From Clostridia bacterium (lineage in GTDB: Bacteria; Bacillota; Clostridia; Christensenellales; Aristaeellaceae), in assembly GCA_017404985.1 (NCBI GenBank), contig JAFRBK010000027.1, positions 62,001 through 126,000 on the forward strand: 64,000 bases of DNA, written 5' to 3'. Positions 28,134 to 63,776 of this stretch are shown here, piece after piece. The translations under genes were made by a program, and so were the position numbers. How positions within the stretch are numbered: the stretch's first letter is position 1; each line of letters opens with the position of its first letter. Below the pieces are notes generated by a model. The model was not told the origin of the DNA, did no database searches, and worked only from the letters and a program-made list of their open reading frames with translations.

Positions 28134-29039
28134 ATGAAGAAAGAGAAGAAGGGGCAAAAGAAGAAGAGCCATCGGGGTACCAACCTGCTGCTGGTTCTGA
28201 TTCTGCTCGTCGGGATCGCGATCGCCGGATACCCGGCCTTCAGCGAATACTGGAACAGCCTGCACCAGTCCAGGGCCATCATGGGGTATGCGGAACGTGT
28301 GGCCGAGCTGTCCAACGAGGACTATGAGAAGATCTGGACGGCGGCCCTCGGGTACAACTGGCGGATCCGCCGAACGGAAAACCGCTGGAGCGTGGAAAAG
28401 GACGACAAGATGCTGGACGACTACGAGAGCCAGCTGAACGTGGACGCCACCGGGAACATGGGGTTCATTTCCATTCCCAAGATCGACGTGAACCTGCCGA
28501 TCTACCACGGCACCAGCGAAGCAGTTCTCCAGACCTCCATCGGCCACATTCCGGGAACCTCCCTGCCGGCCGGAAGCACGCACACAGACGAGGAAAACTT
28601 CGAAAAAGCGGATTTTCCCTCCCACTGCGTGCTGAGCGGACACCGGGGCCTTCCCAGCGCCAAGCTCTTCAGCGACCTGGACGCCATGGAAATCGGAGAC
28701 GTTTTCTATCTTACGATCCTGGACCAGACTCTGACCTACATGGTCGACAAGATCACGGTCATTGAGCCTGATGATACCTCCGAAATGGAGATTATTAAAG
28801 GAAAGGATTTATGCACCCTGATGACCTGCACCCCCTACGGGATCAACACGCACCGGCTGCTGGTGCGGGGGACGCGGGTCGAGAACGAAAAGCAGCTCCT
28901 GAACGTCCGCATCACCGCGGATGCCATCAAGGTTGATCCTCTGTATGTTGCTCCCTTTATTGCGGCCGGTGTTTTCTTCTTCATGATCCTCTGGGTCCTG
29001 TTCATGACCGGGGGAAGCAAAAAGAAACGCCGTGCATGA
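28134..29039 (+). CDS. Class C (pilin-polymerising) sortase, active-site intact
   Basis: A 301-residue membrane transpeptidase that would join LPxTG pilins or attach them to each other at the outer membrane face. N-terminal membrane segment about residues 17-34, and a C-terminal one about residues 272-291, the class C topology. Active site: His170 in VLSGHRGLP, Cys232 in LMTCTPYGINTHRLLV and Arg241 in the same motif. The usual DPW/DPF lid motif is not visible; the corresponding region reads TENRWSVE. It is followed 72 bases later by the giant adhesin start. It is the only intact sortase seen in the window and the probable polymerase for the pilin at 48275-49705. Confidence 0.95.
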   Translation: MKKEKKGQKKKSHRGTNLLLVLILLVGIAIAGYPAFSEYWNSLHQSRAIMGYAERVAELSNEDYEKIWTAALGYNWRIRRTENRWSVEKDDKMLDDYESQLNVDATGNMGFISIPKIDVNLPIYHGTSEAVLQTSIGHIPGTSLPAGSTHTDEENFEKADFPSHCVLSGHRGLPSAKLFSDLDAMEIGDVFYLTILDQTLTYMVDKITVIEPDDTSEMEIIKGKDLCTLMTCTPYGINTHRLLVRGTRVENEKQLLNVRITADAIKVDPLYVAPFIAAGVFFFMILWVLFMTGGSKKKRRA

Positions 29040-29111
29040 CCGGATTGCCCGACATTTTCCCGATCGGCTGAGCCGATGACTGCCTTCTGGATGAAGAAAG
29101 GACGATGTGTA

Positions 29112-32100: not shown

Positions 32101-35100
32101 GTAGTTCTGCTACCTATACAGATTATTCATCGTATACGGAAGATACTTCTCTTTACGATGCCGGATATGCGTTTTATAATGCTGTACCTGCGAACAGCAA
32201 GGATGGGTATGACTTCCAATATTGGATCAGAGACGATGGAGCAGCTCCAGTTGTCATTAGCAACAACCAGCTTCGAGGAACGAATGGCGCCACCACATAC
32301 AATGTCCTTGATCGTGATACAACATACGTCGCATTCTTTGCACCTACAGGCAAGAAAATTGTTCGTGTGAACTGGCCTGCCAGTGGGGGAGGAGTTGGCG
32401 TCAAGGAAGGTGGACCTGCACCCAGATCGGTGACCACACCAACAAATTATCAATTCCTGTATTATTACACATCGGATAATGTAACTATTACTGCTACATC
32501 GTATGATAATTATGTATTTGTTGGTTGGTATGATGGGGATACGCTTGTCTCCACTTCTTCGGAATTGGATGTAAAAACATTAAAAGCAAATTATAGTCTA
32601 ACTCCTGTTTTTGAACCGGATGAGGGGCATCGTGACTATTACCATGTATGGTTCGATGGATCCAATGGATTATACGGAGGTGATATGTCCTCCGCGCGGA
32701 CGCTTTACTCCTACATTTCCGGCGGAACTGTGGTAGGAAGCACTTCCACATATCAAGCGGTAGATAAAAACAACAACACTATAAACCTGCCTACATCCGC
32801 GGAGCTGCCGGCGAATGCTGCCAAGACCCATTACGAGCTTCAGGGCTGGTACGATATCTATAACAAGCAGTATTATTCAAAAGGTGCTCAGGTGAAGATT
32901 ACTGCTGACAGCGTATTCTATGCGGATTGGTTCCCAACGAGCTATAATTTCGGCGGCGGTGACGCCATCAATTCCACGGATACCAGCAGCTTTATCACGA
33001 CATACGTCTATGACTACAATAACCTGTTCAACATGGAGAGCATTAAGCTCACCAGCAACTCTCAGATCAACTCCGCCGGAAACTATGAGTACTGGGAGAT
33101 GAACGGCAATTCCACAGACTTCATCTTCATGACCGCACACACAGGTTCCGGACGGTCTATTAATCCCTATAACAGAGCTTCGGAAGGCTGGAACTGCAAT
33201 CAAGATTCCAGAACAACAGATCTTTACGGTTCTGTTGCTCCAATCAGTCGCCTGTTCTCTACTTCTTCTAACATTTTAGGCCAGCGTTACGTTGGTCAAG
33301 GCAATTATCTCTATACATACGATGCTTCAACTGGATATTATTATTACGACAGCTCTAGAAACGCCGCGTCGTATTCCAACGGAAGATTTTATGTGCACAG
33401 CTACACAAATCAAACCAGCGCAAACGGAAGCTCAGACGACTTCCTTCCTTTCAATTCCGGCAGTGGAACTTTTAATGAAGACGACGGTTCCACGAACTAC
33501 TGGTTCGGCATGCAGTCCAAGATCAATTTCTTCCTGCCGAATAACACAGGATATGTTGATGAGGATGGAAAGACCGGCAACCGCTCCATTAAGGGCGATG
33601 AAATGGTCTATCGTTTCTCCGGTGACGATGACGTCTGGGTGGTGGTGGACGGTAATCAGTTGCTGCTGGATCTGGGTGGCGTTCACGGAAAGATTTCCGG
33701 GGAAATCAATTTCTCCACGGGAGTTGTCAAAGTCGGAACGCAAACCAGTACTTTCTCTCTGCCATGGGGTGAACATACCCTGACGCTGTATTATCTGGAA
33801 CGCGGTACTTCCCAGTCCAACTGCTCCATTTATTTCAATATCGCTCCGAAGTATAACCTTCGGATTATCAAGAAGGATGCCGCTACCGGTACCGGCCTCG
33901 GAGGCGCTGAGTTTGGTATCTATTCCGATCCGGAATGCACTCAAAGCGCGAATCTTCAGGGCCTTTATGATAATACCGCTCACGAGACATTTACAACCGG
34001 GGATGATGGACTGAAGCATTGTAAGGGTCTTATTGCTGGCCATACCTATTATCTGAAAGAATTGACAGCTCCATCCGGGTATCCAGATGTTTTAGATCAG
34101 ATCATTACACTAATCCTTAAATCTGACGGCAGCGCACGCGTTGAAACCACGTCAGGAATTTCCGCCAGTGTTTCTACATCTGCATTTGATCATATGATTA
34201 TTCTCTCAGCGTATAACACGGAGAACCCGATCAAGGTAAAGCTCCGGAAATATGTTCCTGCCTCCAATAGCCCCAGCACAAAGGTAAGGAATATTCAGGG
34301 CATTCGATTCAAGATTTATCCTACACTGGAGGATTATCAGAACAAGACCAACGCCATTGATCTTGGCGCCACTGATGTTTACTTTGACGAGGAAACCAAT
34401 GAGTACATTACCGATAGTGTCGGCAAATTCTACGAGGGAACCATCAATCCCGGTACGTATTATCTGGAAGAGACGCAGGTGCCTTACGGTATCGTGAAGC
34501 AAACCTCGGTGATCAAGATTACTATCGGATACGATAAACAACAACAGAAGGTTTATTACTCCATTAATGACGGAAACAAAATTTACAAAAATAGTAGTAA
34601 CGATTATAATGACATAGAGATCCCAAACGAGATTGCAACAGGCTCTGTTTCCATTACAAAAACGTGGTTTGATGACACCGGCGCCACTGCAGTGCTTTTA
34701 ACCATGGGTCGTATCGCCAACAATGTGGATGACGGCGCGATTGATCCATCCGCATTTACAGTGAGCGGCGGAGATGTCTATACCTACAATAACGTTAAGT
34801 ATATCAGAATTCAGAAGAATGGCACGACTTGGCCGACAGTAACAGTTTCCGGTCTCCCGATGCTGAAAGCAGTCAGAGATTCTTCGGCAGAAGCGGTTTA
34901 TGAGTATCATTATTATGTGACAGAATTTGCTTATATCAACGCAAGTAATCAGGTTGTTGAAACTACTTCCGATGATTTTGGATGGACGCCGATATATTCC
35001 GGTACCAACAGTACTGAACTGCTGGACAAAGTGACTGTTCTTGCCAAGGCGGCCACTGACACTCCGGATCAGTTGACGGTGAATAACTCTGAAACTGTTG

Positions 35101-38100
35101 AGACTGTTGACATTGGGGTTTCGAAACTGTGGAGGAATAATAACGGAACCGACATGACGGAGGGCATGCCTGCCAGCGCTACGTTCAAACTGAAGAGATA
35201 TTATACATATGAGGCCCAGTCTTCATCAGGAAATAATGGAGGTGGGGAAACAGGAACATGTACTGTATATCTCAAATCACAGGACGGCATCATTACGTAT
35301 GACACAAAGACAAATGTTCCTATTGGTAGTACGATTACTTTCTCGGTTGTGATTAGATCCTGGCACGCGACCGAAGGAGAAAAGCTTACTTTTTCAGCGG
35401 GTAGTGTCACAGGAGAGCTTACACTTGCAAATGTTGTCGAGGACAGAACTTATACAAGCATTGCAATTCCCGTGAACGGTAATTTGACAATCAATCTCCA
35501 GAAAAAGGGCAACACTGAGATTAATCAATGGAATAGTAATCCTGGCGACTCATTTAAAACAACTCCATACATAAATGAGCCTATTACTGCATCAGGTACT
35601 TCTAATAATACTGAAACTGTTATCACGACAATTGAAGATGAAGCATTCAACAGTTCCAACCAAACGCTGACACTTCCGATTTCCGGCAATTGGTTTGGAT
35701 CCTTCACCAATCTTCCGAAGAAGGGAACTGTAACAATTGGTGGAGAAGAAAAGGAAGTCTACTATTATTACCACGTTGAAGAGCAAGGTGTTAATACAGC
35801 CCTCTGGACTGTAACAGATGAAAATAATGCTGGTTTGAACGAGTCTGGAACAATCACTGTTACGAATACAAGCACTTTGATTCCGACTGGATCTGTGAAA
35901 CTGAACAAAACCTTTACCGGTGTTGCGGCAAGTCAAATTCCCACGAGCTACCAGATTACAGCAACATGGAACGGGCATGACTATGTGCTGCCAAGGTCTT
36001 ATCCGGCGGGATTTATCCTTGGCGAGGGTAATTTGGATAATTATCCAGTTGATACAGGATTTGGCGCCACGCTATATGGCCCGTATACAAAAGAATACTG
36101 GGAAGCGTGCGGAAACACCGAAGAAATCAATGCGAAACCAGACTATTCCTGGGTTATTGATGGACTGCCTGTTGGTACGGTTGTGAGCTTTAATGAGCAG
36201 AACGGCGACATTGACGGGAAGGATTGGACAGCAACCGTTGTTAACGGAGATGGTTCGACTGCGGAGGGAAAGACTGCCACAGCAACATCTTCCGAAACAC
36301 AGCAGACTGCGGCCTTTACCAATGCCTATACGAACGTAGGCACCCTGACACTGAATAAAACCGTCGATGCGAATTCTGATGAACCCGTGAACGGCGATAT
36401 GACGAAGACAAACGGATACTACACCTTCACGATCACAGGACCGACGAATCCTGTAACCGAGGAAGCCTATTCGAAGGTTGTAACGATCAAAGCTGTTACC
36501 AGCGGCAGCAGCACTGTGTATACATACATCGTGTCTGATGATATTCTCGTGGATGCTTCGAAAAACCTTTGGAACGATGCAAATGCTGCAGCAGTTCCAG
36601 CAGCAGGTGTAGCACTGACTGAACTGGAAATCGGTACTTATGAAATCGTTGAAGCGGAACCTGTTCTGATGAATGCACTTGATGCTGATACCGGGATGTA
36701 TCTGCAGAACATCGAGGTGGAAGGCGGCGGGGAAGGAACAACCGCAAACAAGGCAGAACGGAAAGCCACAGTTGTGATTTCTGCCGATACAACAATTGAA
36801 GCACCATCCGCAACCTTTAACAATATCATAGAACCGAACATTATCTCTGTGGATAAACTGGTGCTTGACATCAACGATTCAAGTATTAATTCCAATGCCT
36901 CTTCTGTCCTCGACTACACATGGGGCTATAGCGCTGACTACGATGTGAACGATGAGGTTCCGTTCCGTGTGGATATCAACCTGCCGTCCGAGGCGTATCG
37001 TTCAGAGAGCACCTATACGTTGGCGATCAATGATGTCATGGAAAACATGACCTATTCCAGCGGTCGCGTATATGCCTATGTGAAATCTGACTCGGAATCG
37101 ACCGGCACATGGTATGATGTGACGGATTGCTTCACGATGCCTTCAGCAGGTGTAAGCACCATCGAAATTTCGAAGAACCTGAAAGATGTTTCCACCAACA
37201 AAAAGGTCAGTGATTGGTCGAACGTTGATACACATAACAAGCTGTATCCGTACACTTATCCTGTGCCAGTGGCGGAAGGAGACAGCTTCGATTCGAATGA
37301 TATCCGCGTTCTGGAGTTCCGCTACAAGGCCATCCTGACCGAAAACGCTGAAATCGGCAAGAATGGGAACGATAATACAGTTACGGTCACCTACACAGCA
37401 GGAAGCGGCATAGAGGGAACGAAGACCGCGAAAAACCGCGTATACACTTATCAGCTGAAGGTCAACAAACAGGATCATGAATCGCAAGCTCTTGAAGGCG
37501 CGTCATTCCAGTTGTACAAGAAGTACAACAATGCGGCGTCTGTTCTGGGCGCCAAGGCCAATGACACAGCCAGTATTACATCCAACGGTATCAGTATTCA
37601 TGACAATGATCGGCTGGATGGCATAACCCTTGACCTGGAGCCGCTGAACGGCAAAACTTCGGGCGACTTCTTCTATGTGGGTGACGCAACAGTTTCCGGC
37701 GCTGTGTTTACCTGGGACCGGATTGATGACGGCGTTTATATGCTGATCGAAACAGAAGCACCTGAAGGTTTCATTCTGCCTGCTACGCCGACCCTCATCA
37801 CGGTTACCGTGAACCACGATGAAACAAATAAGGCCCTGCCGGCGATCTCTGGATCTGTATCCACATGGCCGACCGAGGTGTCTGCAGACTTTGACGGATC
37901 AAAGGATCTGTATCCCTGCGTTGTTACGCTGACAAATGAGCCGCTGGGATCTCTGAAGATCACCAAGAAAGTGACAGTCAACGGTGTAGCATGGACCAAT
38001 TCCAGCGAGTCCCCTGCAGACGGTACGTATACCTTTGTGATCAAGGATGAAAACGACGAAGCTGCAGAAGGGATGGTGGACGATACCCCATTGGTAGAAG

Positions 38101-41100
38101 GTAAGGTCACCATAACAATTACCAACGGTGTATCTGAAACTGTGGAAGTCAAAAACCTATTGCCGGGAACATATACTGTTACCGAAGCCGCCGAAAACAC
38201 GCACGGTACCGGTCTGATTGATGCAGCGATCGGGACTGAGGAAGAAGCCACCGGCGAGGACGAGCCTGAAGAAGGTGATACCACTTCTGACGTTGGCGAT
38301 GATACCACGAGCGGTGAAGATGCCGGCAGTGAGACACCTGGCAGTGGTGATACAGCCGGTAGCGATGCTGCCAGTGAACCTGCTGTTGCTCCGAGCAGAA
38401 CCATTACGCTTACAGTTGTCGGCGGTGAAACCGGTGATGATGTGGCTCCTGCCGGATGCGTGACGTTCACGAACGATTATTCCATCAGGAATATCGTGGT
38501 CAGCAAGGCATGGAGTAACGATAATGACACTTCCTGGCCGATGAATATCTACTCTGTTGTTGTTGGACTGTATGTTGGGGATAATCCGGTTCAGAAGAAT
38601 AATGCTGACTATACTCTCGAACTGACCAACGGGCTCGCTGAAGAAAATAGGACCTTCACGGAACTGCCTGTATATGATAATACCGGCAAGGAAATTGAAT
38701 ACAGCGTGAAGGAACTCGGCGTGCGCCTGACTGACGGTGCGGAGATTACGCCGGTCACAGGAACCAATCTGACACTGACAAGCGGGTCAGACACGGTGAT
38801 CTGGCAGGTGGCGAACGGAGCGGTCGAAAACGGCGCCGCAACAATAACAAACTCTACCGGCCGCCTGGATGTTGTTCACGTGATTAAGAATTGGACAGAT
38901 GCTTACGGCAATCCTGTGAATGAACTGGGTGGAGATGTGCATATTCAGTTGATTCGCAAGCAACCTAACAAAGTACTTGCCGACCAGGACATCGAACCCG
39001 GCAAGACATACGTTTTCACGATTGACGATTACAGCAAGTATCCGAATGCTGAGTATTATGTCGTTGAAACGGATCATAAGTACGGTGACCGCTTCAGTAC
39101 GTACTTTGAGACAATTTACTATCATCAGGAACTTGGAGAGACGGAACGCAGCCGCGGAATGAACTACAATACGCCCAACGAAAGCACGGTACATGCAGGT
39201 GGAACACTGTATATTGATAATGCTCTAAAACGTTCTGGTGCGCAGACCGTGTTCCATAAAAAGTGGATCGTGTTCGGAAGCGTCAATGGAAATTTCAACA
39301 ACGGAGAATTCTATTTCGGCCAGCTGGATGGTGAAGACACAAGTGGAACGGCCAAATACCAAAGCAGTATGCAGCTGGACGTTCAGTTCCTTTGCGACAT
39401 CTATGATGCTCAAACTGGCCAACTGATTAAGCCGGATCAGATTGCTGCCAGAGACTATAACAGGGCTGCGAGGGGAATCACACAATACGCAGATGATTCG
39501 TCCCTGATTCGTGTCTGGTTTGCAACAACGGAACATCCAGCAGAATACCTTGTTTTGACAAATGAAATCACGAAGGACGGAAAGGACTTGCGCCTGTACT
39601 ATGTTGGGAATGGTTCCGACTGGAAATGGGGCTTCCTGGAAAACAGCGGATCCGGTCAGGCAGGTATTGGATACGACGGAAGGCTACCGATGTACGGATA
39701 TCTGCAGGACGATAATGGAAATGCCATTCTGGATTCGGATGGTAAAGCACGACTTGTTACGTATAAGTATTACTTTAAGGAAATTCGTATCTACGACGGA
39801 TCTAAACACACGGTTGACGGGGTTAGCTACAATTGGCAGAATCCTGAGGAAGTGACAGATAAGTGGTGGAAGATTAACGATAAACCTGAAGGTGTTGAAT
39901 CGCTGATCGAGAACCGTCCGTTGGGTCTGCCTGTTGTTAAGTCATGGGAAGGCATGCCGGGTTCTGGTAGGACGGCTGTTATGACGAAGGAAGAACTGTA
40001 TGAGTTTGATAAAATCGGTGTAACTCTATATGGCCGGACTACGATGAATGGAACTCAATATACATGGATACAAGATTCTCTGATCCTTTATCGTGACAGC
40101 GGTTGGTCTGATACTTTCAAGAATCTTGAACGCCATGTAGAAAACAAGACTGTTAACTTAGTTGGTGGCGGTACAGCAGTTGTAACAGGTGATGTTGTAT
40201 ACGGACTGACTGAGGATCTAAATCCTTGGACATATGCAGGAAGGTTCTATATTACAACAGATACGACAACCGGCGAACAGGTTGGCAATCTGGTAAATAT
40301 TGTGACACCAGAAGGGAAGATCCGGATCAAGAAATCCTGGAAAGACGATGAGGATTATGGGAATACGGGTGTACTGCTGAAACTGTACTACTTCAAAAAC
40401 GACAATGAAACTGTTGATTTTACTCCTGACTTGGTACGCACACCTACTGCCTATGGCTTGAATGCGGAACAGTTCAGAGCGTTGAATGGGACATCCTACC
40501 TGTATGTGAAAAAGGACGCAACTGAGGCCTGGACACTTGAAATTGACGGCCTGCATTCCAAAATCGTAACACATTCCAATCAAACGTCTGATTGCTACTA
40601 TTTCATTCAGGAAGTTGGCTATGTAGATTCTTACGGAATTGCTCACGTGATTCCCGATGAATGGAATGTGGTGTACTCCGGTGAGAAGACCCAGACGAAG
40701 AATTATGATGGTAACCAGATTCCTGCAGCACTTCCTCAGGAAGAAGCCGGATCTGTTCCAACCCTGAAGGTTGAAAACGAGGCTTCGGAAATTCCTGGCA
40801 CGTTGACTGTAACCAAGACCGTGAGCGGAGATTACACTACGGGAGAAAACGAGATTTTCGAATTCACTGTAAAGGTTGGCAACGAGTTTGTTGCAGCTGT
40901 ACAGCAGGATGATCAGACTATATATGTATTCTCCGAGCTTACAGAAACAGAGAAGAAATATAGCGTGAAGAAGGATCAGACCATCACCTTTGTGAATCTG
41001 CCGGATGGAGCTTATACGGTGACTGAAGACGAAGAAGACGCAGCCAGGACGGGCTATAAGCTGACAACCACCTATCAGATTGGAGGAGAAACTGCTTCGA

Positions 41101-41669
41101 CTACACCTGCGGCGGCGATTGTAACCGCAGGAACAACTACAGCGGTTACAATCAACAATGAATATGCTCTCGGTGAGGTTCAGGTAAGTAAGGTATTCAG
41201 AGATCTGCCTGAAAGCGCAACATTGAATGATTTCGTGATTACGGCAAGCTGGACTGTGGAAGGACAGGCACCGGAGACACGGACACTGTCCAGGACAGGC
41301 AATCTACCCGCAGATGTGACCAGAACCGGTGACGGAACAGAAGGCAGCCCCTATATTTGGACAATTTCCGGGCTTCCAATCGGCACAGAAGTCAAATTCG
41401 TGGAAACTGGATACGACGGTGTTGCCGGGTATATCTGGTCCGGTACAGTGAACGGAGAAGTACCGGAAAACGGGATAATGGAGGGAACGGCTACTGTATC
41501 CGATATTGAGACGGCTAAGGTTGCCTTTGTCAACATCTACACCGCAGGTGTGGAGCTTCCTTCCACCGGCGGATCCGGTACCCTGATCTACACGGTTGCG
41601 GGCCTGGCACTGATCACTCTGGCGGGCGTGCTGCTGACCACCCGGAAACGGAGAAACAACGAGGGTTGA
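29112..41669 (+). CDS. Giant LPSTG-anchored pilus adhesin A (4,185 residues)
   Basis: Signal peptide residues 1-35, containing LSSC (Cys31), a possible lipobox. Residues 73-102 are five DPDATx repeats. N-terminal modules (about 257-975) are shared with adhesin B, including two copies of the YEMLGNSEILLSKLLEVLE-type module. Residues about 976-1270 have InlB-like repeats, and about 1463-1580 a fibro-slime/PA14-like region (RFSGDDDVWVVVDG, LGGVHG). Then follow many SpaA/CnaB-type isopeptide domains, for example IIKKDAATGTGLGGAEFGI with E-box YLKELTAPSG. The end is LPSTGG (41556-41573), a hydrophobic span and KRRNN. The ATG at 29112 has AAAGGA 9 bases upstream and matches the start of adhesin B; an earlier in-frame ATG (29076) is not conserved. 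Base composition drops toward AT from about 32000, unlike the N-terminal part. Probable tip or stalk adhesin; ligand unknown. Confidence 0.92.
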   Translation: MKRSERKNLNQISGRRITALLAAVAMLLSSCGSLAEYHSSTWESKPLLVSESYKLPLEEVDDDGVQTEPEDGDPDATADPDATVDPDATPDPDAAPDPDASAEPEETEEPTPEPEPTEDLSALYPAGTLTYAGNGYSLTATFPTEARIPAGSSLGATEPDELAFYEYIDALQNRLNSQNPDAPWQDFISDVIFLNPVFTDAEGNTVIPENGVVLTVQYDGAPAQIYRLGGRTEELAEDANTAEINDYTVGMIAIFHTEKTQVGYDVLEYRGNDYKVTVGYAPDAGFPADVQLKVREIMPGTAEYRQYNNQTEAMLDENWEQVEEFARYFDITFENGAGEKIEPKAYIDVEILFDDVIDVAEESIDVQAIHFNEETGIEVIKSETDSNEAAANNSDAIDTVSFSSDTFSVYAVVRTSKMTEKFITKRGWTYQITVTYGEEAQIPSDAKLQIREILPGTEEYELYRSQTAAALESDDVQTPGMFDITIVDGEGNEVEPKAPVDVNITLLRTTINQAEELHVVHFKEEATTTAEEGKAESEILENDVDGNSVTFKTGSFSVYVLAYTVNFEYMGRSYEMLGNSEILLSKLLEVLETGVTLSDITGVSYTGTSVELTETDNNDCLIKIIPNADEQSVLTINTADKVIEIEVAATGKESVDLGDAVISSADGVYLPNDATGSIEYAGAHEEVISLIQESTAEAAAAEPAAEPETTEQAEAPALEPAEQAEALADAEEKNEEKKTEETATASQTFYQVYDINLENVDAENYESGFQVEMKLSEEVQGNDIHLYHVHDGQVTEITEFELVGDSLSFVTENFSYFVLSYTVDFHYEGIDYSIEGNSQILLSELIQILNIRVDKHESDEEVRPDADTDSEKEGEEKKGTENEEKGETEAEEKDTTEGELLNVVDVASVTFTNEHLVSVEEVNGIISYNGSENVDVGEKDFLLTSLEPFTSDEKLTITLTDGTVIVVGVTDAQNPPHYTVMVNDNNAGYVTIRQGTGSSATYTDYSSYTEDTSLYDAGYAFYNAVPANSKDGYDFQYWIRDDGAAPVVISNNQLRGTNGATTYNVLDRDTTYVAFFAPTGKKIVRVNWPASGGGVGVKEGGPAPRSVTTPTNYQFLYYYTSDNVTITATSYDNYVFVGWYDGDTLVSTSSELDVKTLKANYSLTPVFEPDEGHRDYYHVWFDGSNGLYGGDMSSARTLYSYISGGTVVGSTSTYQAVDKNNNTINLPTSAELPANAAKTHYELQGWYDIYNKQYYSKGAQVKITADSVFYADWFPTSYNFGGGDAINSTDTSSFITTYVYDYNNLFNMESIKLTSNSQINSAGNYEYWEMNGNSTDFIFMTAHTGSGRSINPYNRASEGWNCNQDSRTTDLYGSVAPISRLFSTSSNILGQRYVGQGNYLYTYDASTGYYYYDSSRNAASYSNGRFYVHSYTNQTSANGSSDDFLPFNSGSGTFNEDDGSTNYWFGMQSKINFFLPNNTGYVDEDGKTGNRSIKGDEMVYRFSGDDDVWVVVDGNQLLLDLGGVHGKISGEINFSTGVVKVGTQTSTFSLPWGEHTLTLYYLERGTSQSNCSIYFNIAPKYNLRIIKKDAATGTGLGGAEFGIYSDPECTQSANLQGLYDNTAHETFTTGDDGLKHCKGLIAGHTYYLKELTAPSGYPDVLDQIITLILKSDGSARVETTSGISASVSTSAFDHMIILSAYNTENPIKVKLRKYVPASNSPSTKVRNIQGIRFKIYPTLEDYQNKTNAIDLGATDVYFDEETNEYITDSVGKFYEGTINPGTYYLEETQVPYGIVKQTSVIKITIGYDKQQQKVYYSINDGNKIYKNSSNDYNDIEIPNEIATGSVSITKTWFDDTGATAVLLTMGRIANNVDDGAIDPSAFTVSGGDVYTYNNVKYIRIQKNGTTWPTVTVSGLPMLKAVRDSSAEAVYEYHYYVTEFAYINASNQVVETTSDDFGWTPIYSGTNSTELLDKVTVLAKAATDTPDQLTVNNSETVETVDIGVSKLWRNNNGTDMTEGMPASATFKLKRYYTYEAQSSSGNNGGGETGTCTVYLKSQDGIITYDTKTNVPIGSTITFSVVIRSWHATEGEKLTFSAGSVTGELTLANVVEDRTYTSIAIPVNGNLTINLQKKGNTEINQWNSNPGDSFKTTPYINEPITASGTSNNTETVITTIEDEAFNSSNQTLTLPISGNWFGSFTNLPKKGTVTIGGEEKEVYYYYHVEEQGVNTALWTVTDENNAGLNESGTITVTNTSTLIPTGSVKLNKTFTGVAASQIPTSYQITATWNGHDYVLPRSYPAGFILGEGNLDNYPVDTGFGATLYGPYTKEYWEACGNTEEINAKPDYSWVIDGLPVGTVVSFNEQNGDIDGKDWTATVVNGDGSTAEGKTATATSSETQQTAAFTNAYTNVGTLTLNKTVDANSDEPVNGDMTKTNGYYTFTITGPTNPVTEEAYSKVVTIKAVTSGSSTVYTYIVSDDILVDASKNLWNDANAAAVPAAGVALTELEIGTYEIVEAEPVLMNALDADTGMYLQNIEVEGGGEGTTANKAERKATVVISADTTIEAPSATFNNIIEPNIISVDKLVLDINDSSINSNASSVLDYTWGYSADYDVNDEVPFRVDINLPSEAYRSESTYTLAINDVMENMTYSSGRVYAYVKSDSESTGTWYDVTDCFTMPSAGVSTIEISKNLKDVSTNKKVSDWSNVDTHNKLYPYTYPVPVAEGDSFDSNDIRVLEFRYKAILTENAEIGKNGNDNTVTVTYTAGSGIEGTKTAKNRVYTYQLKVNKQDHESQALEGASFQLYKKYNNAASVLGAKANDTASITSNGISIHDNDRLDGITLDLEPLNGKTSGDFFYVGDATVSGAVFTWDRIDDGVYMLIETEAPEGFILPATPTLITVTVNHDETNKALPAISGSVSTWPTEVSADFDGSKDLYPCVVTLTNEPLGSLKITKKVTVNGVAWTNSSESPADGTYTFVIKDENDEAAEGMVDDTPLVEGKVTITITNGVSETVEVKNLLPGTYTVTEAAENTHGTGLIDAAIGTEEEATGEDEPEEGDTTSDVGDDTTSGEDAGSETPGSGDTAGSDAASEPAVAPSRTITLTVVGGETGDDVAPAGCVTFTNDYSIRNIVVSKAWSNDNDTSWPMNIYSVVVGLYVGDNPVQKNNADYTLELTNGLAEENRTFTELPVYDNTGKEIEYSVKELGVRLTDGAEITPVTGTNLTLTSGSDTVIWQVANGAVENGAATITNSTGRLDVVHVIKNWTDAYGNPVNELGGDVHIQLIRKQPNKVLADQDIEPGKTYVFTIDDYSKYPNAEYYVVETDHKYGDRFSTYFETIYYHQELGETERSRGMNYNTPNESTVHAGGTLYIDNALKRSGAQTVFHKKWIVFGSVNGNFNNGEFYFGQLDGEDTSGTAKYQSSMQLDVQFLCDIYDAQTGQLIKPDQIAARDYNRAARGITQYADDSSLIRVWFATTEHPAEYLVLTNEITKDGKDLRLYYVGNGSDWKWGFLENSGSGQAGIGYDGRLPMYGYLQDDNGNAILDSDGKARLVTYKYYFKEIRIYDGSKHTVDGVSYNWQNPEEVTDKWWKINDKPEGVESLIENRPLGLPVVKSWEGMPGSGRTAVMTKEELYEFDKIGVTLYGRTTMNGTQYTWIQDSLILYRDSGWSDTFKNLERHVENKTVNLVGGGTAVVTGDVVYGLTEDLNPWTYAGRFYITTDTTTGEQVGNLVNIVTPEGKIRIKKSWKDDEDYGNTGVLLKLYYFKNDNETVDFTPDLVRTPTAYGLNAEQFRALNGTSYLYVKKDATEAWTLEIDGLHSKIVTHSNQTSDCYYFIQEVGYVDSYGIAHVIPDEWNVVYSGEKTQTKNYDGNQIPAALPQEEAGSVPTLKVENEASEIPGTLTVTKTVSGDYTTGENEIFEFTVKVGNEFVAAVQQDDQTIYVFSELTETEKKYSVKKDQTITFVNLPDGAYTVTEDEEDAARTGYKLTTTYQIGGETASTTPAAAIVTAGTTTAVTINNEYALGEVQVSKVFRDLPESATLNDFVITASWTVEGQAPETRTLSRTGNLPADVTRTGDGTEGSPYIWTISGLPIGTEVKFVETGYDGVAGYIWSGTVNGEVPENGIMEGTATVSDIETAKVAFVNIYTAGVELPSTGGSGTLIYTVAGLALITLAGVLLTTRKRRNNEG
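29328..29417 (+). repeat. Five 18-bp tandem repeats (DPDATx)
   Basis: In-frame 18-base units encode DPDATA, DPDATV, DPDATP, DPDAAP and DPDASA just after the signal peptide. The paralogous adhesin has six units at 53086-53193, so the copy number varies. Confidence 0.85.
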
Positions 41670-41694
41670 AAAAAGAAGCATAATTCGGTACAAT
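41666..41694 (+). promoter_or_regulatory. Internal promoter at the adhesin A stop codon
   Basis: TTGAAA (41666-41671) overlaps the TGA stop; a 17-base spacer is followed by TACAAT (41689-41694). It could drive the following genes independently of the 12.6-kb adhesin gene. Confidence 0.65.
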
Positions 41695-41769: not shown

Positions 41770-42432
41770 ATGGAGATCTATCATCCCAAAGACGAAGAGC
41801 TGCTGCGGGAAATGAAGCGTGTTCGTCGTGTCGCGAAACGGAAGCGCTGGCTGTGGGGAACCCTGATTTTCATGATGCTTGGTGCGCTTTTCGGATGGTT
41901 TGTCTTCAGCAAGTACCTGACTCTGGCCACCATGCACGGAAGCGCCATGGGCAGCACGCTGCCGGACGGCAGCCTGGTGGTGGTCTACCGGGATGACGCC
42001 CATGAATACCAGCGGGGCGACATCATCCTGTACGAAACCGACACGGGATATAAGATGAAGCGAGTGACCGCCGTGGCCGGCGAACGCGTGGTCGTCAACC
42101 CGGTGGGCACCACCCGCGTCAACGGCGAGGACGAGGAGGAATCCTACCTGACCGGCCGAAGCGCGGATGCAGGCCTGAAGGCAAAGCGCCTGACGGTCGA
42201 GAACCAGCAATTGTTTGTGGAGGGAGACCAGCGGAGCCTTTCCGTGGACTGCCGGTATCCGGATGTGGAACCGATCGACCAGGAGAAGGTGGTCGGTCGG
42301 GCCGTGCTGACCGTGTGGCCCCTATACAACATCCAGACGCTGACGCCGGCCGGACGGGTCGACGTGCCCAGGCAGGCAACGGACAAAACCGCTGCCCAGA
42401 CTGACGGCACCACGCAGGAGGGCACGCCATGA
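41770..42432 (+). CDS. Signal peptidase I homologue lacking the catalytic serine
   Basis: A 220-residue protein with one N-terminal membrane span (about residues 27-47) and the S26 peptidase fold. Active enzymes read GxSMxPTL; here residues 57-64 are GSAMGSTL, so Ala59 stands where the catalytic Ser should be. The general-base Lys is kept (Lys97 in KMKRVTAVAGE). Ser58 is next to it but out of register. Known precedent: the pilus-island SipA of Streptococcus pyogenes lacks catalytic residues and works as a pilus assembly factor. A non-catalytic chaperone role is the likeliest reading. Its stop overlaps the start of the pseudo-sortase gene (ATGA), so both are made together. Confidence 0.85.
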   Translation: MEIYHPKDEELLREMKRVRRVAKRKRWLWGTLIFMMLGALFGWFVFSKYLTLATMHGSAMGSTLPDGSLVVVYRDDAHEYQRGDIILYETDTGYKMKRVTAVAGERVVVNPVGTTRVNGEDEEESYLTGRSADAGLKAKRLTVENQQLFVEGDQRSLSVDCRYPDVEPIDQEKVVGRAVLTVWPLYNIQTLTPAGRVDVPRQATDKTAAQTDGTTQEGTP

Positions 42433-43448
42433 AGAAATTTCTGATTGTGCTGGCTATTCTGCTGGTGATTGCAGCCGGGGTTGGGTACCTGGTTTATCCG
42501 GTAGTTTCCAATCAGGTGGCCAAGGGGAATGACGCCGCCCTGATCCGGGACTACCACAAAACGGTCAAAGCCATGGACAGCGCGGCGATTAACGAAGAGC
42601 TGCAAAAGGCGGTCACCTATAACAACGAGCTCAACGAAGGGGAAGACAAGAAGTTCGAAGTCGGGAATCCCTTCGCTGCATCCATTAACCCAGGAACCCA
42701 TTATTATGAGAGCATCCTGAGCTTCTCGAACGGGATCATCGGGGAGATGGGCATTCCGGCGATCAGCGTGGCGCTGCCGATTTACCACTCCACGATGGCC
42801 AACCGGGGGACAAATACCTTGGTTCACCAGGAAACCACGCACCTGCCCACCGGCACAGGCGGAACCCAGACGGTGCTGGCCGGGCCCGGTATTCAACCGG
42901 CAGAAGGCTTCTTCGGGCAGATCGGGCTGACGGACGAGCGGATGCTGGAAGACCTGGACCGGGTCATTCCCGGAAACCTGATCTATCTCAACATCCTGGA
43001 TCGGACCTTCGCTTACCTGGTGGACGATGTGAAAAACTTGTCCACGAGCGGGCTGGCCAGCCTGGACCTTTCTCCCGTCGAGGGGGAAGACCGGCTGACC
43101 GTGATGACCGAGAAGAAGGGACATCTGGTGCTGGTCCAGGCCCGGCGGGTGGCTGTATCCGATATCCAGGAACTGCTGGAGCATCAGGACCAGGGAACGA
43201 TCCCGCCGAGCTGGGAAATCATCATGATTCTGGGGTTGCCGGTGCTGCTGCTGGGATTTGTGATCCTGGCCATTATCGGGCGGATCAAGCGGAGAAAGTA
43301 CATGCTGCCGACGGAAGGCAGAGACAAGAAAAAACAGGAACCTGTATTCCCCGAGGACGGGGACGAACCCAAACCTACGGATGACAAGAACAAAGAAACC
43401 GAAGCCACCGCCGCCGAGACGGACGGGACAGAAGGGAAAAGGGATTGA
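42429..43448 (+). CDS. Cysteine-free sortase homologue (pseudo-sortase)
   Basis: A 339-residue protein with class C sortase layout: N-terminal membrane span (residues 3-24), the sortase barrel starting at GEMGIPAISVALPIYHST, a second membrane span (about 263-288) and a charged tail. All three catalytic residues are replaced: the His of SGHRG is Pro153 (LAGPGIQ), the Cys of TCTPYG is Glu228 (MTEKKG) and the Arg of HRLL is Leu233 (HLVL). There is no Cys anywhere in the protein. The rest of the fold, the length and the reading frame are kept, which argues against simple decay. Translationally coupled to the inactive signal peptidase homologue. Probable scaffold or substrate-binding partner in pilus assembly. 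Confidence 0.85.
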   Translation: MKKFLIVLAILLVIAAGVGYLVYPVVSNQVAKGNDAALIRDYHKTVKAMDSAAINEELQKAVTYNNELNEGEDKKFEVGNPFAASINPGTHYYESILSFSNGIIGEMGIPAISVALPIYHSTMANRGTNTLVHQETTHLPTGTGGTQTVLAGPGIQPAEGFFGQIGLTDERMLEDLDRVIPGNLIYLNILDRTFAYLVDDVKNLSTSGLASLDLSPVEGEDRLTVMTEKKGHLVLVQARRVAVSDIQELLEHQDQGTIPPSWEIIMILGLPVLLLGFVILAIIGRIKRRKYMLPTEGRDKKKQEPVFPEDGDEPKPTDDKNKETEATAAETDGTEGKRD

Positions 43449-44443: not shown

Positions 44444-44475
44444 AACAGGCTGCGTTAACCGGAAAGGACATGCCT

Positions 44476-46596
44476 ATGAAAAGACTGATTTCGCTGCTTC
44501 TCTGTCTGGCGCTGCTTCTGGGCGGGAACTGTGTTTTTGCCGAGGAAGCCGAAAACCTTCCGAAAGAAAACCAGACAGAAGAAAACCAGGCAGAAGAATA
44601 CAGCCATGAGGAACTCCGGGTTGGGAACCCGACGCCCATGGACGGCAAGTTTTTCACGGGCCTGTGGGGCAACTCTACCACCGACATCGATGTCCGGTCG
44701 ATTGTGAACAGCTACTACCTGACGGTCTGGGGCTATGATACCGGTATTTTCCGGGAAAACAAAACGGTGGTCAGCAGCCTGAATATCGCGGAGGATACGA
44801 AGAGCGGCGACAGGACCTATCTGGTGACTTTGTACCGCGACCTGTTCTATTCAGACGGATCGCCGATTACCGCATGGGATTATGCCTTCTCCGTCCTCTT
44901 CCAGATTGACCCGGTGATTGCCGAACTGGGCGGCGTGCCGTTGGATATGAGCTATTTTGACGGATACAAGGAGTATATCAGCGGCGAACGCCCGTATCTT
45001 TCCGGCATCCGCATTCTGAACGACTACATGATCGAGTTCTCGGTCAACCATGAATACCTGCCGTACTTTTTCGAACTCTTCCGGATCGGCATCCTGCCGT
45101 ATCCGATCCATGAGATTGCTCCCGGCTGCAAGGTTTACGACGACGGCCAGGGCGTCTATATCGGAAACGAGGACAAGAGCATCGCGGAACCGCTGTTCAC
45201 CAAGGAACTGCTGGAAGCAACCGTGATGGATCCCGACACGGGATACCTTTCCCATCCGACCGTCGGCAGCGGCCCCTATGTGCTGACCTCCTGGGACGGA
45301 GAAAGTTGCACTTTTGAGATTAACCCGTATTTCAAGGGCGATGAGGACGGGAACAAGCCGTCCATTCCGAAGATTCATTTTACCCTGGCGAAAAATGAGG
45401 ACATGATCCAAAAGCTGGAGGAACGGGAGTTTGACCTGCTGAACAAGGTGACCCGGGAGGACACCATCCTGAGCGGCCTGCAGCTGGTTTCCGGGCCGTT
45501 TGCCATGCAGAACTATCCGCGGATCGGCCTGACATTCATCGTTTTCACGCCGGACCGGAAAGCCCTGCAGGAAAAGAACGTCCGGAAAGCCATTAATTAC
45601 TGCATGGATACCACGACCATTGTGCGCGATTACACCAGCGGCTTCGGCATCCAGATGGATATCTTCGCCGGCGTGGGCCAGTGGATGTATTCCATTGCCC
45701 AGGGATCCCTGGACTATCCGATTTCCGTGGAGCTGACAGACCAGAGCTCAGCAGCGGACAAGGCGCAGTACGAGAAGGAATACGCCGAGTGGGAAGCCAT
45801 TACCCTGGACAACGTGCTCCACTACGACCTGAACGTGGATCACGCGATCCGGCTGCTGGAAGAAAATGGCTGGACCCTGAACGCGCAGGGCGGGACCTAC
45901 ACACCCGGGGTGGATGAATACCGCTGTAAGATGATTGACGGGGAATTGGTAGCCCTGAACATGACCTGCGCCTATCCGGAAACGAACCGGACGGCAGTTT
46001 CTATGGAAACCCTTTTCATCCCGTATCTGGAGGAAGCGGGCATCAAGCTGACCCTGATCCCGATGGACATGAAGACACTGCTGCGTTCCTACAACGACCG
46101 GGACATTGAGCAGATCGACATGTTCTATCTGGGGGACGACTTCAACATCGAATTTGACCCGCAGCTGTTCTTCCTTCCCGGAGACCCGACGGCGCCGGAA
46201 GAGGACAATCTGGCCTGGGTGCATGCCCAGATGTACGAATATGCCCGCCTGATGTGCGAAACAGACCCGCACGATACCCTCGGCTTCATGCGCAAATGGG
46301 TGACCTTCCAGGAGAAGTTCAGCGACATGCTGCCGATGATTCCGATATACTCCAATGTGTATTTCGATTTCTACACCAAAGAGCTGCTGAACTACGAGAT
46401 CCGGAAACCGGTTACCTGGGGTGACGCGATCGTGCCGGCCAGCATGGGCCTGTTTGTGCTCGAACAGGAGGCGGCAGAAGCTGCCGCGGCTGCTGCTGGA
46501 GAAGAGGAAGCAGGCTCGGACGATTTCGAAACGGATGACTTCGAGACCGACGACTTCGATGACGACAGTTTTGACGATTCGGATTTCGAGGATTAA
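44476..46596 (+). CDS. Oligopeptide-binding-type protein (SBP_bac_5 family) with acidic tail
   Basis: A 706-residue protein with a signal peptide (about residues 1-22; Cys in LGGNC is not a perfect lipobox). The body matches the family-5 solute-binding fold: LNIAEDTKSGDRTYLVTLY, LFYSDGSPITAWDYAFSV, VGSGPYVLTSWDGESCTFEI and NVRKAINYCMDTTTIV. The last 30 residues are almost all Asp, Glu and Phe (DDFETDDFETDDF). No permease or ATPase genes accompany it, and it sits between pilus genes, so a role other than transport, such as a peptide sensor or surface chaperone, is possible. The ATG at 44476 follows AAAGGA by 7 bases. Confidence 0.85.
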   Translation: MKRLISLLLCLALLLGGNCVFAEEAENLPKENQTEENQAEEYSHEELRVGNPTPMDGKFFTGLWGNSTTDIDVRSIVNSYYLTVWGYDTGIFRENKTVVSSLNIAEDTKSGDRTYLVTLYRDLFYSDGSPITAWDYAFSVLFQIDPVIAELGGVPLDMSYFDGYKEYISGERPYLSGIRILNDYMIEFSVNHEYLPYFFELFRIGILPYPIHEIAPGCKVYDDGQGVYIGNEDKSIAEPLFTKELLEATVMDPDTGYLSHPTVGSGPYVLTSWDGESCTFEINPYFKGDEDGNKPSIPKIHFTLAKNEDMIQKLEEREFDLLNKVTREDTILSGLQLVSGPFAMQNYPRIGLTFIVFTPDRKALQEKNVRKAINYCMDTTTIVRDYTSGFGIQMDIFAGVGQWMYSIAQGSLDYPISVELTDQSSAADKAQYEKEYAEWEAITLDNVLHYDLNVDHAIRLLEENGWTLNAQGGTYTPGVDEYRCKMIDGELVALNMTCAYPETNRTAVSMETLFIPYLEEAGIKLTLIPMDMKTLLRSYNDRDIEQIDMFYLGDDFNIEFDPQLFFLPGDPTAPEEDNLAWVHAQMYEYARLMCETDPHDTLGFMRKWVTFQEKFSDMLPMIPIYSNVYFDFYTKELLNYEIRKPVTWGDAIVPASMGLFVLEQEAAEAAAAAAGEEEAGSDDFETDDFETDDFDDDSFDDSDFED

Positions 46597-46652: not shown

Positions 46653-47129
46653 ATGGCCAAAAACATGCTGAAGAACTACGGCAGGTTTGAGCTGCTGGAG
46701 CTGATCTACGCGATGCGCAAGGAAAACCTGGAACTGAAGGAACGGTGCGCACAGGCGGAGGAACAGGTCCGGGAGATCAAGGAGGACGCCGAGCGCCGGA
46801 TCGAAAACAACCGCCGGGACTACGAGAACCGCATCGAGGAACTGCGGATGCAAGGCGCTGCGAAAGACCTGCAGATCCGCATGAAGAAGATTGAAGAGCA
46901 GTTGCGCGTGATGCAGAAGCTGACATCGGTGGACGTGGACCTGAGCGAGATGCCGACTGACGCGGAGATCAGGAAACTGAAGAAACAGGAAGAAAAGGCC
47001 AAGGCAGCGGTTAAACCGGAGGAGAAGCCCAAGACGGCCGATAAACCGGCAGAGAAGGAAAAGGACAAAGTCGCAGAGCAGCCGGAAGAAAAGAAGAAGC
47101 CACCCAAAGGGGTTGACTACGAGTTTTAA
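46653..47129 (+). CDS. Small cytoplasmic coiled-coil protein of unknown function
   Basis: 158 residues. Residues about 15-95 form a strongly charged coiled coil (RKENLELKERCAQAEEQVRE), followed by a Lys/Glu/Pro-rich tail ending PKGVDYEF. No signal peptide or membrane span. GGAGGAGG lies about 10 bases before the ATG. I do not recognise a named family. Its position between the oligopeptide-binding-type gene and signal peptidase gene suggests a cytoplasmic helper of the pilus operon. Confidence 0.75.
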   Translation: MAKNMLKNYGRFELLELIYAMRKENLELKERCAQAEEQVREIKEDAERRIENNRRDYENRIEELRMQGAAKDLQIRMKKIEEQLRVMQKLTSVDVDLSEMPTDAEIRKLKKQEEKAKAAVKPEEKPKTADKPAEKEKDKVAEQPEEKKKPPKGVDYEF

Positions 47130-47159: not shown

Positions 47160-47750
47160 ATGGCGAAGAAGCCGATGGAAGTATTTCCGGATTTACAGGA
47201 AATCGAAACCGAGATGAGCCAGGTCCGCAGCAAGGGCCGGTTTCGACAGGCACTGAAGGGAACGGCCGGCACGGTGATTGTTGTCGCGGCCCTGGCGGTG
47301 CTGGTGGCGACGATTATGCTGCCTGTTTTGCGGGTGACCGGTACTTCCATGCAGCCCGGATTCCAGCCGGGGGACATCATCGCGTGTTACAAAACCCAGG
47401 AGTTCAAGCAGGGTGACATCTGCGCGTTTTATTTCAACAATAAGCTGATCATCAAGCGAGTGATCGCAATTGGCGGCGATCTAGTGGAGATCGATGAGGA
47501 AGGGCATGTGTCGGTCAATAAGGTTCAGCTGGAAGAATCCGATTACATCTCCGAATATGCACTTGGGATGTGCGATATCGAATTCCCCTTTCAGGTGCCG
47601 CTCAATTCCTACTTCGTGATGGGGGATAACCGGGACAACTCCGTGGACAGCCGTGCAACGAATTTCGGCTGCATCAAGGGTGAGGAAATGGTTGGCAAAA
47701 TTCTGGTCCGGATTTATCCCTTCAACAGCCTCACGTACTTCGGAATGTAG
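47160..47750 (+). CDS. Signal peptidase I, catalytic residues intact
   Basis: A 196-residue S26 serine protease with one N-terminal membrane span (about residues 38-56). The catalytic Ser63 is in VTGTSMQPGF and the general-base Lys99 in IKRVIAIGGD; the C-terminal box reads MGDNRDNSVDSR. It should cleave signal peptides outside the membrane. Placed just before the pilin leader, it is likely the processing enzyme for pilin and adhesins, in contrast to the Ser-less homologue at 41770-42432. It lies 30 bases downstream of the coiled-coil gene. Confidence 0.94.
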   Translation: MAKKPMEVFPDLQEIETEMSQVRSKGRFRQALKGTAGTVIVVAALAVLVATIMLPVLRVTGTSMQPGFQPGDIIACYKTQEFKQGDICAFYFNNKLIIKRVIAIGGDLVEIDEEGHVSVNKVQLEESDYISEYALGMCDIEFPFQVPLNSYFVMGDNRDNSVDSRATNFGCIKGEEMVGKILVRIYPFNSLTYFGM

Positions 47751-52863: not shown

Positions 52864-55800
52864 ATGAAGCGTCTGGAACGGAAGAATCTGAACCGAATCA
52901 ATGGAAGGAGAATCACTGCCCTGCTGGCTGCAGTGACGATGCTGCTTTCTTCCTGCGGATCGCTGGCGGAGTCAGAGTATCACAGCTCCATCTGGGATTC
53001 GAACCCGCTACTTGTTTCGGATCCGTACAAAGTCCCGCGGGAAAATGTGGACGAGGAAGGGATTCAGACGGAACCGGAGGACGGGAATCCGGATGCGACA
53101 GCCGATCCGGACGCAACCGTAGATCCGGATGCCACTCCGGATCCTGACGCGACACCAGACCCCGATGCAACGCCGGATCCGAACGCATCGACCGAACCGG
53201 AGGAAACCGAGGAACCGACACCGGAACCTGAACCCACGGAGGATCTTTCCGCCATTTATCCGGCGGGGACGCTGACCTATACCGGAAACGGATACAGCCT
53301 GACGGCAACCTTCCCGACAGATGCCCGGATTCCTGCGGGATCAAGCCTGGGAGCCACAGAGCCCGATGAACTGGCCTTCTATGATTATGTGGATGCCCTG
53401 CAAAACAGACTGAATTCCCAAAATCCCGACGCCCCTTGGCAGGACTACATTTCTGACGTGATCTTCCTGAGTCCTACGTTCACGGACGCGGAAGGAAACA
53501 AAGTGATTCCGGAAAACGGCGTGGTTCTGACCGTTCAGTACGACGGAAAACCCGCTCACTTCTACCGGGTCGGCGGACGGACCGAAGAACTGGCCGAAAA
53601 CGCCAACACCATTGAAATCAACGGCTACACGGTTGGCATGATTGCTATCTTCCATACAGAAAAGACCCAAGTCGGTTATGACGTGCTCGAATACCGCGGC
53701 AAAGACTACAAGGTGACCGTAGGCTATGCCCCGGACGCGGGTTTTCCGGCGGATGTGCAGCTGAAGGTTCGGGAGATTATGCCCGGCACCGCGGAATACC
53801 GGCAGTACAACAACCAGACCGAAGCGATGCTCGATGAAAACTGGGAGCAAGTGACCGAGTTTGCCCGGTACTTCGACATCACCTTCGAAAACGGCGCCGG
53901 CGAGAAGATCGAGCCCAAGGCCTATATTGATGTAGAAGTCCTCTTCGACGACGTGATTGGCGTCGCGGAGGAAACCGCCGATATCCAGGCCATCCATTTT
54001 AATGAAGAAACCGGCATCGAAGTTATCAAGGCCGAAACCGACTCCAACGAAGCCGCCGCCAACAACAGCGACGCCATTGATACGATTTCCTTCTCCTCCG
54101 ACACCTTCTCCGTGTATGCATTTGTGAAGACTACCAAGATGACGGAGAAGTTCATCACGAAGAGAGGGTGGACGTATCAGATCACTGTGACCTACGGAGA
54201 GGAAGCCAGAATCCCTTCAGACGCAAAACTGCAGATCCGGGAAATCCGGCCCGGCACAGAGGAATACGAGCTTTACCGCAGCCAGACCGCTGCGGCTTTG
54301 AAATCTGATGACGTCGAGACTCCCGGCATGTTCGACATCACCATCGTCGACAGTGAGGCGAATGAAGTGGAGCCCAAGGCTCCGGTTGATGTCAACATCA
54401 CGCTCCTCCGGACTACCATCAACCAGGCGGAAGAACTTCACGTGGTCCACTTTACGGAAGAAGCCACGACCACTGCCGAGGAAGGAAAAGCAGCTTCTGA
54501 AATCCTGGAAAACGATGTGGATGGCAACAGTGTTTCCTTTCAGACGGATTCCTTTTCCGTCTACGTCCTGGCCTATACCGTGAACTTCGAATACATGGGC
54601 CGCAGCTACGAGATGCTGGGCAATTCCGAGATCCTGCTTTCGAAGCTCTTGGAAGTGTTGGAAACCGGCGTCACGATCAGCGATATCACCGGCGTTTCCT
54701 ACACCGGAACTTCCGTGGAATTGAAGGAAACAGAGGGCAACGACTGCCTGATCAAGATCATTCCCCATGCGGACGAGGAATCTGTCCTGACCATCAACAC
54801 TGCTGACAAGATCATCGAGGTCCAAGTTGCCGCTACCGGCAAGGAATCTGTCGATCTCGGCGATGCTGTCATCTCTTCTGCCGACGATGTATATCTTCCC
54901 AATGACGCTACCGGCAGTATCGAGTATGTCGGCGACCGCGAGGAAGTTATCTCCAAGATTCAGGAAAGCACCGCTGAACAGGCAGATGCTTCCAAAGAAA
55001 AACCGGAAGAAACGGGTGTGGAAAGCCAGACCTTTTATCAGGTCTATGATATCAACCTGAAAAACGTGGATACGGATAACTATGAATCCGGCTTCCAGGT
55101 TGAGATGAAACTGAATGAGGAAGTCCAGGGCGACGATATTCACCTCTATCATGTTCACGACGACCAGGTGAAAGAAATCACTGAGTTTGATCTGGCAGGG
55201 GACAGTCTGTCCTTCGTTACTGAAAACTTCTCCTATTTTGTTGTTTCCTATACCGTAAACTTCGAATATATGGGCCGCAGCTACGAGATGCTGGGCAACT
55301 CCGAGATTCTGCTCTCGAAGCTGCTGGAAGTGCTGGAAACCGGCACCACGATCAGCGACATTACTGGCGTATCCTACACCGGCACATCCGTGGCGCTGAC
55401 GGAGACAGACAACAACGACCGCCTGATCAGGGTCATACCCAATGCGGACGAGGAATCTGTCCTGACCATCAACACCGCTGACAAAGTGATCGAAATTAAC
55501 GTCGCTGCCACCGGCAAGGAATCTGTCGATCTTGGCGATGCTGTCATCTCTTCCGCCGATGGCGTGTATCTTCCCAACGAAGCCACCGGCAGCATCGAGT
55601 ATGCCGGCGAGAACGAAGAAGTCATCTCCCTGATTCAGGAAAACACCGCCGAAACAGCAACAACGGAAACAGCTGCGACCGAATTGGAAGCTTCCGAGAA
55701 AACAGCAGAACAAACAATGGAACAAGCCGAAGAGCAAACAAGAGAACAGGAAGATGATTTAAAGGAAGCATCAGAAAACAGATCGGCTGAACAGTCCGTT

Positions 55801-63687: not shown

Positions 63688-63703
63688 AATCAGGTGCCTG
63701 ATT

Positions 63704-63771
63704 CGAAGAAAGTACATGCTGCCGACGGAAGGCAGGGGAAGACGGACGGGACAGAAGGGAAAAAGGATTGA
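63704..63771 (+). pseudogene. Remnant of the deleted pseudo-sortase gene's 3' end
   Basis: Bases encoding RKYMLPTEGR, then bases matching the TDGTEGK coding segment in another frame, reproduce two parts of the pseudo-sortase tail (43296-43322 and 43420-43448). Everything between is missing, as are the signal-peptidase homologue and the body of the pseudo-sortase. The join shifts the frame. Confidence 0.75.
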
Positions 63772-63776
63772 GCGCC

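Follow-up and report, generated by a model that had tools for sequence, protein, structure and literature searches.

In Streptococcus pyogenes, the signal peptidase I homologue SipA lacks the catalytic dyad and is needed for pilus assembly (PMC4049620, PMC7900414), in a role that a 2021 review called unknown (PMC7900414). In the pneumococcal pilus islet PI-2, one of the two sortases is a pseudogene in most pneumococci (PMC3178606). Here we analyze a stretch of 64,000 nucleotides (the window) from a Clostridia bacterium of the Aristaeellaceae (assembly GCA_017404985.1, contig JAFRBK010000027.1, positions 62,001 to 126,000 of the forward strand). It holds a sortase-assembled pilus locus, with an intact class C sortase (SrtC) and an LPxTG backbone pilin together, and within this locus lie a dead signal peptidase homologue (dSP) and a dead sortase homologue (dSRT). 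With moderate confidence, we read the two as a conserved pair of pseudoenzymes forming a non-catalytic membrane scaffold that would serve SrtC. A sequence-only reading had suggested that two inactive processing enzymes make up a new pilus assembly module. The two dead enzymes do stand as one unit in a pilus locus, but a dead signal peptidase in a pilus operon is already known from SipA/LepA (PMC4049620, PMC7900414). The pair and the site preceding it are as follows.

41666..41694, + strand: sigma-70-type promoter-like site (TTGAAA-17-TACAAT, 10/12), upstream of the dSP gene
41770..42432, + strand: dSP, dead signal peptidase I homologue, 220 amino acids (profile matches, alignment)
42429..43448, + strand: dSRT, dead class C sortase homologue, 339 amino acids (profile matches, alignment)

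Both proteins had been called inactive homologues, and the residues bear this out. The dSP protein (P0001) matches Peptidase_S26 (E 1.1e-18) and sigpep_I_bact (8.7e-20), and lacks the Ser-Lys dyad of an active signal peptidase I (S26): the Ser of GxSM is Ala in the alignment, while the Lys of KRV is kept. Across loci the Ser is replaced by Ala or Gly, with no consistent substitute. The Lys is retained in nearly all proteins of the clade-A type (Arg in L086 and L158) and replaced by Arg in clade B. As a signal peptidase I homologue without an intact dyad in a pilus locus, dSP resembles the SipA/LepA type; in phmmer comparisons its E-values to SipA and to active signal peptidases are nearly tied. 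The most conserved of the stretches scored are the cytosolic N-tail (MEIYHPxDEELLREMxRVRR; 0.77) and box D (0.76), compared with an ectodomain mean of 0.615 that boxes B and E also exceed. The N-tail motif is present in 12/12 loci recovered by a whole-protein search; in L151-L166 its presence is partly by construction, because the search patterns included part of the tail. In one lineage, dSP contains an additional SpaA prealbumin-like (pilin-type) domain, placed ahead of its Lys box (for instance L064:785-1708, L073:4846-5769 and L163:10001-10924). Eight loci carry this insert, and the three tested all pass the Pfam cut-off.

The dSRT protein (P0002) has a class C sortase fold without the catalytic His or Cys and with Leu for Arg. 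It passes the broader sortase_fam model (45.5 bits, cut-off 39.35) and matches class_C_sortase with E 6.8e-32 at 111 bits, under the NCBIfam cut-off of 160. There is no cysteine anywhere in the protein, and most of the TPYGxNxH stretch and most of the Cys loop are lost as well. An insertion makes the alignment at the His column loose in clade A, and the absence of His was also read by eye. The former Cys region shows a small excess of conservation over the ectodomain (+0.03; +0.10 in SrtC). Two transmembrane helices are predicted, and the second is followed by a cytosolic RxYxLP motif found in 20 of 22 clade-A-type dSRT proteins and in 0 of 57 other sortases (including the fragment L072_2_502). 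Clade-B dead sortases (L080, L081, L089-L093, L118) have a different cytosolic C-terminus, with a basic stretch and a final Leu. The conserved cytosolic tails on both proteins suggest that dSP and dSRT may contact each other or a cytosolic partner.

The two genes overlap by ATGA, as first noted, and both open reading frames were confirmed. Of 21 loci, 14 retain this 4-base overlap and seven have gaps of 29-52 bases instead (starts picked by a sequence pattern). The claim that the pair has its own candidate promoter holds for the window and only partly beyond it. Of the 20 loci checked, 10 have a promoter-like site of at least 10/12 within 150 bases upstream of the dSP gene, where shuffled letters would give 0.41. 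Among the other ten, one (G091) has a site at 9/12, and no site was seen in the remaining nine, which include L152 and L154 (G482 and G502, same genus).

A survey of co-occurrence had been proposed as the check, and the genes were not found apart. Among 45 genomes of the genus, searched for strong matches to two profiles, 14 carry both genes, 31 carry neither and none carries one (counts not corrected for ancestry). In all 14, the genes are adjacent, both sets of residues are lost, and SrtC has His, Cys and Arg. In G488, SrtC occurs without the pair, but it sits at a contig end, so a pair may be missed there. Among 200 sampled genomes of the family, 46 have a P0002-like match and 22 have a sortase without Cys, each beside a signal-peptidase-like gene; 21 of these 22 neighbours lack the Ser, the exception being G120 (signal peptidases were read in the 60 regions that surround sortase matches rather than in every one of 153 genomes). 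At the 16 loci from a scan of named genomes, the pair is adjacent and dead in 16/16. By contig and coordinates, twelve of these loci are from genomes already in our sets, seven belonging to the family sample and five to the genus set; no such counterpart was recognised for L155, L157, L158 and L159. All 16 are uncultured or metagenome-assembled genomes, and the six with a host given come from sheep, goat, water buffalo or red deer. The VIA-align comparison covered 50 entries. The dead pair was also sought beyond the family, in 297 genomes of an order sample: 18 from other families have a sortase match, and in 17 of them the best match has His and Cys. The best match in the remaining one (G365) is a 154-residue fragment, and further matches that were read also have His and Cys.

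The pair is maintained by selection. For six pairs of four genus genomes, the ratio of nonsynonymous to synonymous substitutions (dN/dS) was 0.06-0.16 for dSP, 0.09-0.22 for dSRT and 0.08-0.10 for SrtC; dSP and dSRT are therefore under purifying selection and are not pseudogenes.

Around the pair, the order dSP, dSRT, Cna332, solute-binding protein, cc158 and second signal peptidase recurs, often followed by a pilin. Gene spacing suggests that the cluster would be a single operon. The remaining features of the window are as follows.

28134..29039, + strand: SrtC, class C sortase with His, Cys and Arg present
29076..41669, + strand: giant LPxTG adhesin 1, 4197 amino acids
43445..44443, + strand: Cna332 (third gene), secreted pilin-like protein with the tail HVGVCFE-stop, without a sorting signal
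44470..46596, + strand: extracellular solute-binding protein (SBP), family 5, directly 3' of the tail protein
46653..47129, + strand: cc158, small charged protein without a transmembrane helix, coiled-coil-like (by eye)
47160..47750, + strand: second signal peptidase I, with Ser and Lys intact in the window genome
48194..49705, + strand: backbone-type pilin with an LPSTG anchor
52864..63687, + strand: giant LPxTG adhesin 2, 3607 amino acids
63704..63763, + strand: deletion scar (gap 63688-63767) with two remnants of the 3' end of the dead-sortase gene
63768..64000, + strand: start of a second copy of the third (tail) gene, which continues beyond the window end

The likelier start of Cna332 is the ATG at 43454, and the protein weakly matches a major-pilin model (E 6e-4). 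Within the pilus region, 50455-52527 encodes a protein with transglutaminase-like, AhpC/TSA-like and leucine-rich-repeat matches. The second signal peptidase is also dead (Ser to Asn, Lys to Arg) in G132, G066, G185, G163, G112, L161, L163 and L164, so that neither peptidase there looks able to cut; in G784 its Ser is Thr and its Lys is kept.

The third gene changes with the sortase beside it. At the two loci of genus g17 with an intact second sortase, where the peptidase Ser is already Gly, it ends in [LM]KTG, a transmembrane helix and a basic tail. In seven complete clade-B loci the end is [ML]LGTG with helix and basic tail, and L083 of G120 has ILGTG. In all 19 complete clade-A-type loci, the sorting signal is absent and the third-gene protein terminates in HVG[VD]C[FY][ED] (three further loci are cut by contigs, and the L152 contig stops before the third gene). 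Loss of sortase chemistry thus goes with a change or loss of the sorting signal in the neighbouring gene. The link is not absolute, since an LLGTG end stands beside a lone live SrtC at L113, in a genome (G016) with a dead pair elsewhere.

The origin of the dead enzymes was examined in trees, for which (as for the counts) duplicate rows L075 and the overlapping L061-L071 were dropped, and the fragment L072_2_502 was left out of the sortase tree. The tree neither establishes nor rejects a single origin of the dead sortases (branch support 70/0). A topology test rejected the placement of the seven dead sortases from g17 together with the two live second ones from that genus (p 0.022), but no longer did so once L118 was added (p 0.127). 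The signal-peptidase tree gives two changes for Ser to Ala or Gly, and one more for Ser to Asn in the second peptidase of five genomes; these counts are without direction, and starred branches alone force fewer changes. An intermediate state, with a peptidase whose Ser is Gly beside a second class C sortase that retains its His, Cys and Arg, is seen at L079:11218-12754 and L088:9282-10833. The dSRT gene probably derives from a second class C sortase.

How might a pair without chemistry act? In the scaffold reading, dSP, which keeps the family boxes without the nucleophile, would probably be a SipA-like membrane chaperone presenting pilin to SrtC. The loss of catalysis in dSRT, together with the loss of the sorting signal in the neighbouring subunit, suggests that dSRT most likely joined the same complex as a holder or scaffold in the membrane, which would hold, without covalent bonds, a subunit that is no longer cut. 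That the two form a complex, which partner they bind and how they affect pilus assembly are points that we infer from sequence. Several observations weigh against this scaffold. SipA pull-downs with pilin and sortase were negative (PMC7900414). The dSP profile is nearer to an active signal peptidase (4nv4, 6e-15) than to SipA (4n31, 1e-9), so SipA serves as an analogy. The former His region of dSRT keeps an excess conservation of +0.07 over the ectodomain (+0.06 in SrtC), and some of the former active site may therefore still be important. In G120 a sortase without Cys adjoins a peptidase-like gene that retains its Ser. In G189 (L107), SrtC, tail gene, solute-binding protein, cc158, signal peptidase and pilin occur without the pair, so the rest of the locus does not strictly depend on it. 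Finally, 72% of 200 bootstrap trees separate all 22 dead sortases from the rest, a split that is unsafe because of long branches.

The sequence-only reading had proposed that the pair holds a giant adhesin at both ends, by the signal peptide and by the LPxTG motif, before handing it to SrtC. We consider this improbable, although the pair lies directly 3' of giant adhesin 1 in the window, dSP keeps its peptidase boxes and conservation persists near the former His of dSRT. The position behind a giant gene varies: in G091, G149 and L152 the pair comes after SrtC. An open reading frame of at least 1500 amino acids is present at 16 of the 31 loci with a dead pair and at 10 of the 27 used for comparison (Fisher p 0.30; frames called mechanically in regions of unequal length, many of them cut; the 27 comprise 25 loci without the pair and 2 in which the second sortase is live and the peptidase next to it dead), which does not support a special link to giant adhesins. 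Binding of an LPxTG end by dSRT fits poorly with a protein that has lost His, Cys and most of the TPYGxNxH stretch, and the next gene, its nearest genetic partner, has no LPxTG. The same reading saw a sign of one function in the loss of both genes from a second unit. The loss is real: only scraps of the dead-sortase 3' end remain between giant gene 2 (end 63687) and the copy of the third gene (63768), with 63704-63735 matching 43290-43321 at 31/32 bases and 63740-63763 matching 43417-43440 (local score 59; maximum 32 in 500 shuffles). It looks like a removal by one event, and one copy of the pair remains in the genome. A single deletion across two neighbouring genes is weak evidence for a common function.

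Alternatively, the pair could sense or brake SrtC or secretion and signal through its conserved cytosolic tails, which we regard as rather unlikely. The top conservation of the dSP N-tail and box D, the special cytosolic motif of dSRT and the presence in the cluster of cc158, a charged protein without a transmembrane helix, would suit such a regulator. Profile scans found no signalling domain, purifying selection acts across the whole genes, and in one lineage the pilin-type insert sits on the dSP ectodomain. It is also improbable that dSP alone works as a SipA-like chaperone with dSRT as a decaying paralogue. Although dSRT has changed more quickly than dSP and, in most comparisons, than SrtC (dN/dS up to 0.22), it is under purifying selection, is never apart from dSP in the 45 genus genomes and has a conserved C-tail absent from other sortases. 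Least likely, and very much so, is a hidden catalysis through other residues. The Lys kept in nearly all clade-A-type dSP proteins (Arg in L086 and L158) would favor it, but there is no consistent substitute for Ser (Ala or Gly), clade B has Arg for Lys, P0002 has no cysteine, and SipA showed no activity (PMC4049620).

The tail of the third gene reaches beyond the pair. A DNA pattern for the tail and stop has 4 matches in the window genome (reversed control 0) and, in the family sample, 54 places in 29 of 200 genomes (control 0); it occurs in 29 of 37 genus genomes vs 0 of 24 others, and in none of 290 other genomes of a class sample. In the family sample it is matched in 13/13 clade-A genomes and 0/8 clade-B genomes (for matches from beyond the genus, genes were read in G056, G094, G150, G186 and G189). 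Another 16 genomes have a match without a clade-A pair, so the tail is independent of the dead pair, although the clade-A pair comes with the tail. The bearers that were read are mostly long, up to 3368 residues, and the single non-pilus bearer scanned with Pfam has Cna_B repeats. Bearers include L167:1768-2766, L168 to 2324 and L169:10720-12786. Among the 64 distinct sites for which 1 kb or more of downstream sequence was available, 43 have a P0012-type solute-binding protein within 2.5 kb of the tail, at 41 of them directly next to it; the other 21 have none in the stretch available. The window genome has this P0012 subfamily twice, both directly 3' of a tail gene, and two other tail genes without it. 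No match reached the tail C-terminus in Pfam (P0011, its copy and one more) or NCBIfam (P0011 and three), and no paper with HVGDC, NHVGD or HVGVC came up in a text search of the literature library available. The invariant tail HVG[VD]C[FY][ED]-stop, borne by secreted proteins of this family, is a candidate new sorting or docking signal.

Tentatively, and with rather low confidence, we propose a new kind of surface retention free of sortase for long secreted proteins, in which a fixed C-terminal tail of the form (mostly) ..YxT[PA]LGxxxxxxHVG[VD]C[FY][ED]-stop would be read by the dedicated solute-binding protein encoded next to most bearers. In the pilus locus, this route would have merged with the pseudoenzyme pair, which would dock the tail protein non-covalently, enzyme and substrate having swapped chemistry for binding. 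If true, this would be a new route of surface display in these gut bacteria.

Among the papers listed in searches of open-licence PMC literature, none has a dead sortase partner; the dead signal peptidase in a pilus operon is already known, and neither a selected dead sortase partner nor the tail came up in the papers searched. Like SipA/LepA (S. pyogenes FCT-2/3/4, pneumococcal PI-2, group B streptococcal PI-2b), dSP is a signal peptidase I homologue in a pilus operon. SipA has Asp and Gly for Ser and Lys, whereas dSP has Ala or Gly for Ser and, in the window, keeps Lys, and the parts of the SipA/LepA papers at hand mention no dead sortase partner, which dSP has here. In its SipA with two sortases, PI-2 (pitA, sipA, pitB, srtG1, srtG2; PMC3178606) also resembles this locus; its srtG2 is a pseudogene or intact, whereas dSRT is a protein without Cys under selection. 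With class C (pilin) sortases, dSRT shares the fold and the two transmembrane helices and differs in lacking the catalytic His and Cys and in its cytosolic tail motif. The locus thus takes the SipA-like idea outside the streptococci and adds a pseudo-sortase to it, and its natural states (live second sortase with sorting signal, dead with weak signal, dead with none) allow the idea to be tested by comparison.
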